From a virus: DNA of 28,915 nt. Of this stretch, positions 23,081-24,349 are shown piece by piece. The stretch spans positions 1 through 28,915 of IMG/VR virus record IMGVR_UViG_3300005471_000199. The stretch is one strand, 5' to 3'. Positions within the stretch are counted from its first letter, which is position 1. Each line of letters opens with the position of its first letter. The notes under the pieces are model-generated. The model saw nothing but the letters and a program-made list of their open reading frames with translations. It was not told the origin of the DNA and made no database searches. Made by a program: the position numbers and the translations under genes.

Positions 23081-23086
23081 GCTGCC

Positions 23087-23263: not shown

Positions 23264-24349
23264 TCATGGCTTGTGACTCTGGATGTCGGGAAGAGACTCG
23301 CCGAGCTTGGAAAGGCCGGAGGTCCGAACGTGGGGGCGTTGCTGCTGCTTCAGGCCTTCGTTCTCGAGCTGCTGCAGTCGTGTCCAGAAGTACTCCAGCG
23401 ATGAGGGCCTGTCGTCAGGGTCGGACTCGTCCCACCAGGCGTTGAGGTGGTTGAGCAGCTGTGGACCCTCGATGGCGAAGCCTGCGATCTGTTCAGCGAT
23501 GGCGTGTTCGTGAGCAAGGGTGTCGGGCTTAACCGACATCCAGCCGTGCTTACCGAAGAACCAGTTGGTCAGCTGCAGGCGACGCTTGGTCGCGGGAAGC
23601 CGAGCCCAATCAGACCACTGGATAGGCCCGCCGTTGCCGGCATGCGTGGTGGGTGTGTCGGTGGGGACAGGCTGCTCAGGCGGCGGGTCTGAGGGACCTA
23701 CATCGTGTACGTCTCCACGTGAATGTCTTCCACTCCTTCCACTCTGTCCACTCTGTCCACTCTTTCCACTCATCCACTGGCGCGCGCGCGGGAGGGGTTC
23801 CGCTGGGGCTCCAGTTTGGCTCCGCTCGTTCTCCATTTCGTCTCCGCTGCCGGAGACATGGCGGAACCGAAATGGTTCCGGCCGTCCTCCAGAAATCCAC
23901 TCATTTGAGATCGGAGGGCCCGAAAAACCGGGCTTCTTTTTATCCTCTTGCCACTGCTCGTACAGCCGCTTGGGCAGGTGGATGCTCGGCTCCCAGCCGG
24001 GATGCGCCGGGAGGGTACTCCAGCGAATTCGGTCAACTTTTTGTGGCTGATACTTGTGCCAGTTACGAATTTGGAGGTAGGTTTTCTCGTCGAATCGGTA
24101 GAGAAGGATGAAGTGGGCGGCCTCGTCCAGGTGCTCAAAAGCCTTCCTGCAGCGGACCAGCGAGACCTCCTCGAGGTGCTGGAATACCTGGTGCCAGATC
24201 CACTTCACCGACGCGGTCAGGCGGCCCTGATCGTCGGCAAGCAACCACATGCTGATGGCCAGGTCACGCGCCACCAGGCCACCGGCGTTGATCTCCTCGT
24301 CGTCGAGGATGCCGCGGTTGCTGTACCGGTTCTTATAGGTTGCGGTCAT
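23264..24349 (-). CDS. Phage replication initiator (winged-helix, DnaD/O-like)
   Basis: The first ~120 residues show the winged-helix pattern of phage replication organisers: LAISMWLLADDQGRL, then a helix leading to FILLYRFDEKTYLQIRNWHK and YQPQKVDR. A low-complexity Ser-Gly-Pro linker (about residues 165-240, with SGKSGQSGQSGRSGR) joins it to a C-terminal helical domain containing WFFGKHGWMS and LNAWWDESD. Such proteins bind the origin and recruit a helicase loader or helicase. The linker DNA holds 9-bp repeats listed separately, as in lambda O. The start overlaps the upstream stop (ATGA). Last gene before the main intergenic gap. Confidence 0.8.
   Translation of the reverse strand: MTATYKNRYSNRGILDDEEINAGGLVARDLAISMWLLADDQGRLTASVKWIWHQVFQHLEEVSLVRCRKAFEHLDEAAHFILLYRFDEKTYLQIRNWHKYQPQKVDRIRWSTLPAHPGWEPSIHLPKRLYEQWQEDKKKPGFSGPPISNEWISGGRPEPFRFRHVSGSGDEMENERSQTGAPAEPLPRARQWMSGKSGQSGQSGRSGRHSRGDVHDVGPSDPPPEQPVPTDTPTTHAGNGGPIQWSDWARLPATKRRLQLTNWFFGKHGWMSVKPDTLAHEHAIAEQIAGFAIEGPQLLNHLNAWWDESDPDDRPSSLEYFWTRLQQLENEGLKQQQRPHVRTSGLSKLGESLPDIQSHKP
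23729..23902. repeat. Iteron-like 9-bp direct repeats inside the replication gene (candidate origin)
   Basis: On the plus strand the heptamer TCCACTC occurs at 23729, 23738, 23747, 23756 and 23765, an exact 9-bp period. A degenerate TCCACTG lies at 23773 and one more exact copy at 23896. The array encodes the Ser-Gly-x linker using AGT and GGA codons, unlike the GC-ending codons around it. An A/T-rich stretch lies at about 23923-23945. Phage initiator genes that contain their own origin (lambda O) have this layout. Binding is not shown. Confidence 0.55.

Follow-up and report, generated by a model that had tools for sequence, protein, structure and literature searches.

The window analysed here, a 28,915-nucleotide stretch of viral DNA (IMG/VR record IMGVR_UViG_3300005471_000199), is also contained in a longer IMG/VR record of 62,462 bp; window position p corresponds to position p + 17,994 of that record. 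This 62-kb contig is from a temperate soil phage; an integrase gene lies close to one of its ends, and a ParB-like gene and an exonuclease gene lie to the right. The ParB-like partition/nuclease protein (L007, 6681 to 8147, minus strand) lies in the right part of the contig despite the integrase at the other end. Relatives of the terminase, ~41% identical, come from phages of Brevundimonas, Dinoroseobacter and Microcystis. On the minus strand of the window, one gene encodes a replication initiator with DNA repeats in its interior. The features of this gene are as follows.

23264 to 24349, minus strand: replication initiator gene, 361 aa, assigned by N-terminal PHROG matches
23990 to 24331, minus strand: N-terminal winged-helix domain, residues ~7–120, from pLDDT and PDB structure comparison
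23918 to 23941, plus strand: hairpin GCCCG-AAAAAC-CGGGC followed by a T-run, from sequence and DNA folding
23896 to 23902, minus strand: distal exact copy GAGTGGA, codons GAG TGG A, from motif search
23861 to 23882, plus strand: inverted candidate iteron, GCGGAACCGAAATGGTTCCGGC (written also GCGGAACCGAAATGG), arms 87% complementary to copy 1
23826 to 23847, minus strand: 22-bp candidate iteron copy 1, GCGGAGACGAAATGGAGAACGA, 22-bp period with a 23/30 self-match
23804 to 23825, minus strand: 22-bp candidate iteron copy 2, GCGGAGCCAAACTGGAGCCCCA, 16/22 identical to copy 1 in the 22-bp register
23794 to 23803, minus strand: partial candidate iteron copy 3, GCGGAACCCC, in the GCGGA register
23773 to 23779, minus strand: degenerate copy CAGTGGA (TCCACTG on the plus strand, one mismatch), offset 8 bp from its neighbour
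23729 to 23771, minus strand: short tandem array, five copies of GAGTGGANN at a 9-bp period (TCCACTC on the plus strand), from sequence, Tandem Repeats Finder and shuffles
23345 to 23617, minus strand: C-terminal helical region, residues ~245–335, model helices of moderate confidence

In a profile search, initiator residues 17–118 matched PHROG 1408 (E 1.8e-8) and also PHROGs 16167, 2149 and 12556 ('replication initiation protein'). It is this N-terminal winged-helix profile that places the protein among the PHROG 1408-type replication initiation proteins; no Pfam family, that of lambda O included, matched at E ≤ 1. The structure model has a pLDDT mostly between 90 and 96 over residues 11–100, and its top matches in the PDB are winged-helix DNA-binding proteins (Z up to 7.7), all of them generic winged helices. 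Foldseek returned no significant match to the model at E ≤ 0.001, and a PDB search by sequence found no relative. One winged helix is modelled confidently, compared with two in the Rep proteins of iteron plasmids, and the C-terminal helices, modelled with moderate confidence, could by analogy with lambda O form a partner-binding domain. Residues 146 to ~240, between the winged helix and the helical C-terminus, have low model confidence and are predicted to be disordered. This is the stretch that encodes the repeats, which agrees with the earlier note on this DNA, where the array had been placed in the linker of a winged-helix initiator. Close relatives of the initiator were found neither in IMG/VR, apart from the longer copy of the same contig, nor in GTDB genomes or named phages (E 1e-3). 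No helicase loader or P-like loader was recognised among the scanned neighbour genes; DnaC, P or DnaB genes adjoin the initiator in several homologs.

The five copies of TCCACTC begin on the plus strand at 23729, 23738, 23747, 23756 and 23765, in exact 9-bp steps, with an invariant 7-bp core and a variable 2-bp spacer. Tandem Repeats Finder gave the array (23728–23771) the top score in the window, 67. This 7-mer occurs six times in the gene, a count reached for any 7-mer by none of 8,000 synonymous-codon shuffles, and the 9-bp periodicity was matched by none of 3,000. The copies reported previously, five in tandem, one degenerate and one distal, are thus real and significant, and so is the codon oddity that had been described with them: all five serines of the array use AGT and all five glycines GGA, compared with 12 of 280 Ser codons and 44 of 394 Gly codons outside the array, in 13 other genes of the window. 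These codons bear on whether the array is a feature of the peptide, a Ser-Gly linker whose DNA became repetitive through recent 9-bp slippage duplication. Such a duplication would keep the frame and encode SGx repeats, low complexity is common in linkers, and the period, being a multiple of three, makes the array by itself compatible with a peptide repeat. Against this stand the rare AGT and GGA codons at all ten positions and the shuffles; furthermore, the distal and degenerate copies fall in codon frames other than that of the array, which leaves copies that a Ser-Gly repeat in the peptide cannot explain. As homologous initiators also carry DNA arrays of 7- and 8-bp period that encode different peptides (see below), we regard the peptide reading as very improbable.

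A 40-mer within the array lies at the 99.3rd percentile of duplex instability on the 62-kb contig, although the array is only 47% AT, and the array has the lowest plus-strand purine fraction of all 54-bp stretches of the contig. It would thus supply the adjacent, easily melted region seen in lambda-type in-gene origins. We considered DnaA boxes, since TCCAC resembles the core of TTATCCACA, and rejected them because the other arrays have no such likeness. Neither the array sequences nor the peptides they encode were found in the searchable literature, from which subscription journals are mostly absent.

On the coding strand, immediately 5′ to the array and between it and the distal copy, is a second set of repeats that the earlier note had missed: helically phased 22-bp units, two full, one partial and one inverted, at 23794–23882. 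GCGGA recurs at nucleotides 502, 524 and 546 of the gene, exactly 22 bp apart. Only 1 of 3,000 synonymous shuffles matched this periodicity at periods of 10, 11, 21 or 22 bp, and 6 of 3,000 at any period from 10 to 34. Copies 1 and 2 and the inverted copy are the three best matches to their 15-mer consensus in the 62 kb. Single-strand hairpins across the repeat region were, overall, no stronger than chance in DNA folding (z −0.83). A spacing of two helical turns is classic for initiator sites that share one face of the helix, and repeated sites in helical phase within the gene of the initiator are what a lambda-type in-gene origin contains. The 22-bp repeats are the better iteron candidates; the 9-bp copies, to which the earlier note had given that name, suit strand opening better and are probably the unwinding array.

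An A/T-rich patch had also been pointed out nearby. It is indeed unstable, the region 23918–23941 reaching the 99.3rd percentile of the contig, but it has the look of a terminator-like hairpin more than of the main unwinding element. The hairpin and T-run lie inside the initiator gene, upstream of the candidate iterons, in the orientation that would terminate plus-strand (antisense) RNA. The cumulative GC skew of the 62-kb contig has a single prominent interior minimum, at window position 23086, ~640 bp from the array, in keeping with the location proposed for the origin. The skew left of ~34 kb is at odds with a simple bidirectional origin, and we therefore count the minimum as supporting evidence only.

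We then asked what homologous initiators contain. Searching named phages with the N-terminal domain of the initiator, by protein similarity alone, gave homologs in phages of Gordonia, Mycobacterium, Streptomyces, Corynebacterium, Bifidobacterium, Pseudomonas, Escherichia, Hafnia, Bordetella, Moorella and Myxococcus. Taken singly, their E-values are weak, but many carry a replication-initiator annotation and the conserved residues can be aligned. The actinophage homologs mostly carry GGAACAG(G) arrays with a period of 7 or 8 bp, of which OneUp has seven copies, the proteobacterial phage homologs CTGATTC at alternating 7/8 bp, and others 5–6-bp G/A units; the Nitzel homolog has GGGATN at 6 bp and the Moorella phage homolog CTTCTC at 6 bp. 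Relatives of Nitzel and of a further homolog, L052, found by protein, mostly have GGGAA, GGGATA or GGAACAG arrays; no relatives of the Moorella phage initiator were found. The motif nearest to that of the window is in L052 (GGAGT units), and the window's GAGTGGANN seems to belong to the same series.

Synonymous shuffling, covering periods of 5, 7 and 8 bp, detected a short-period array in 17 of the 20 named-phage genes homologous to the initiator (p ≤ 0.05, with no correction for the two period sets) and in 0 of 24 neighbouring control genes (p ≤ 0.02). Most of the homolog arrays run out of phase with the codons, and most follow repeats of 11 or 21/22 bp. A short repeat in the peptide would not be expected to produce periods of 7 and 8 bp, and these distant homologs indicate that selection acts on the DNA of the arrays. 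The outcome is the opposite of a Ser-Gly linker kept with different codons and without DNA repeats, which the earlier note had named as evidence against its proposal: the linker is not kept, while DNA arrays are, with other sequences and other peptides. The arrays are also peaks of instability above both flanks, at the 98th percentile in the median for the proteobacterial type and the 87th for the actinobacteriophage type. In the proteobacterial arrays (initiators L180–L299), the 7/8 alternation amounts to a 15-bp super-period, and the peptide encoded there has DSLIP repeats, which possibly have a peptide role beside the DNA role.

The association also emerged from DNA patterns. Among the IMG/VR matches listed, GGAACAG triplets fell within an initiator ORF in 29 of 29 cases at 8/8-bp spacing, 10 of 15 at 7/7 bp and 0 of 34 at 9/9 bp, with the initiator-borne arrays on the coding strand in 39 of 39. 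CTGATTC triplets, again among the matches listed, were in initiators in 81 of 83 cases at alternating 7/8 bp, always on the coding strand, and in 0 of 37 at other spacings (9/9 bp: 0 of 17). The phages in both scans are related, so these loci are not independent events. The initiator profile was built on the N-terminal ~120 residues only and so does not include the array. For the window's own motif, only 2 of 32 GAGTGGA arrays in IMG/VR were within initiators, one of them that of this phage; this, like the lack of 9-bp GGAACAG arrays in initiators, counts against an origin role for the 9-bp array of the window. In bacterial genomes, 37 of 117 four-copy 8-bp GGAACAG arrays were in initiators and 80 outside, so the motif alone is not diagnostic there; 8-bp arrays outside initiators are frequent in Candidatus Viridilinea (Chloroflexi; L313, L322, L323, L344, L361 and others).

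Among 89 initiators of <60% identity, chosen by array motif and by nothing upstream, the 110 bp preceding the array had their strongest repeat period at 11 bp in 40, at 21–22 bp in 26 and at 33 bp in 5. Phage-specific, helically phased repeats thus usually precede the short array. This bears on a rather unlikely alternative for the window, in which the TCCACTC/GAGTGGA copies are the double-strand binding sites of the initiator and the 22-bp repeats are secondary or accessory. The invariant 7-bp core with its variable spacer would suit binding sites, as would the distal exact and degenerate copies in other frames. However, the short motif of the homologs is nearly fixed per host group while the adjoining 11/22-bp repeats vary by phage, the opposite of coevolution with a diverging DNA-binding domain, and spacings of 5–9 bp lack the helical phasing of 11 and 22 bp.

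The same constancy could mean that the short array serves neither the initiator nor passive melting but a host factor that binds there, such as primase or another part of the replisome. A host-factor site would account for host-group-specific motifs: identical motifs occur across initiators of ~30% identity, all 26 initiator-borne bacterial GGAACAG arrays for which an organism name was shown are from Actinomycetota, and proteobacterial phages use CTGATTC. Yet the motif class follows the initiator clade too, so that host and protein are inseparable here, and the window motif fits neither the GGAACAG nor the CTGATTC class. We give this explanation a low likelihood.

Alternatively, the G/A-rich coding strand might open the origin by forming a G-quadruplex, or an R-loop when transcribed. 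A coding-strand G3+ quadruplex motif is present in 54% of actino-type arrays and nowhere else in those genes, and the window array is the most purine-asymmetric 54-bp stretch of its contig. The motif is found, though, in 0 of 48 proteobacterial-type arrays, whose coding strands are rich in pyrimidines, and this rules out a universal G-quadruplex. The window itself has only a two-G version (G4Hunter 0.8), and opening by either structure appears highly unlikely.

In our preferred interpretation, 23729–23882 is quite probably the core of an in-gene origin of the lambda O or SPP1 gp38 type, with the 22-bp repeats as the iterons of the initiator and the short array as the strand opener. The winged-helix domain would bind and wrap the iterons, which resemble GCGGARCCRAAMTGGAG, are spaced by two helical turns and include one inverted copy, a step modelled on lambda O and SPP1 gp38, whose binding to in-gene repeats is established (PMC7466680, PMC6316719). 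The GAGTGGA array, a local stability minimum with extreme purine/pyrimidine asymmetry, would then melt beside the initiator complex, and one of its strands would be kept open by the initiator or a host protein, as in the strand-specific initiator binding in unwinding regions of other replicons (PMC10797057). The helicase would be loaded at the opened array. The gene presumably tolerates an origin because the repeats fall in the disordered linker.

In-gene origins are already known. In lambda O, the stretch encoded by the origin DNA is an interdomain linker, and the domain plan of the window initiator (winged helix, disordered linker, C-terminal helices) is that of lambda O. The lambda ori within gene O and the origins of Stx phages are mid-gene, with iterons flanked by an unwinding region (PMC7466680). 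The window shares with lambda an origin, as here proposed, in the middle of the initiator gene, with repeated sites and an unwinding region encoded in the linker, so that the lambda-O-like layout of the earlier note holds for a DNA-level array that is probably part of an origin. It differs in having ~3–4 repeats at 22 bp and a short array that is not strongly AT-rich, rather than 4–6 iterons and an AT-rich tract, and in lacking a lambda O Pfam match and a recognised adjoining P-like loader. In SPP1 oriL, gp38 binds direct repeats within its own gene 38, beside a DNA unwinding element (PMC6316719); compared by layout, in-gene repeats and an adjoining unwinding element are common to both, the SPP1 element being AT-rich. 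DnaA-trio and 13-mer single-strand elements and the DUE repeats of iteron plasmids are strand-specific short tandem repeats beside double-strand initiator sites (PMC10797057). The likeness is one of sequence layout: those repeats are AT-rich, or are 3-mers or 13-mers, whereas the phage arrays are purine- or pyrimidine-rich, 5–9 bp long and in-gene. For the RepA-like initiators of mycobacteriophages, likened to the window by description only, a lambda-like origin in or beside repA was suggested, and no repeated motifs were seen in the regions examined (PMC7157519).

As far as we found, a recurring two-part layout with a short, strand-asymmetric, not strongly AT-rich 5–9-bp array is undescribed in the searchable literature, from which most subscription papers are missing; examples could exist in older phage-replication reviews. 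We tentatively suggest, with much less confidence than for the window itself, that 5–9-bp arrays might be a general, DnaA-trio-like strand-opening element of phage origins: strand-asymmetric, linked to the host group, placed as a rule just downstream of 11/22-bp iterons that are particular to each phage and lie within the initiator gene, and recognised in single-stranded form by the initiator or a host replication protein. To our knowledge, most phages, nearly all actinophages among them, have no mapped replication origin. The two-part signature, 11/22-bp repeats followed by a 5–9-bp array in a winged-helix initiator gene, would let origins be called from sequence alone in many phage lineages. 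It also raises the question of what reads a short repeat that remains constant between initiators with ~30% identity, although the iterons beside it vary.

Two further patterns were seen in the homologs. In L008, L026 and L012 a C-run/G-run hairpin directly follows the short array, for example CCCCCCTACCCCCAAAGGGGG in IME307, and is possibly a third origin element. Several actinophages have a second cluster of 11-bp repeats earlier in the gene, within the winged-helix coding region; the two clusters are at gene nucleotides 172–194 and 375–397 in L012, and at 159–193 and 393–404 in L010.
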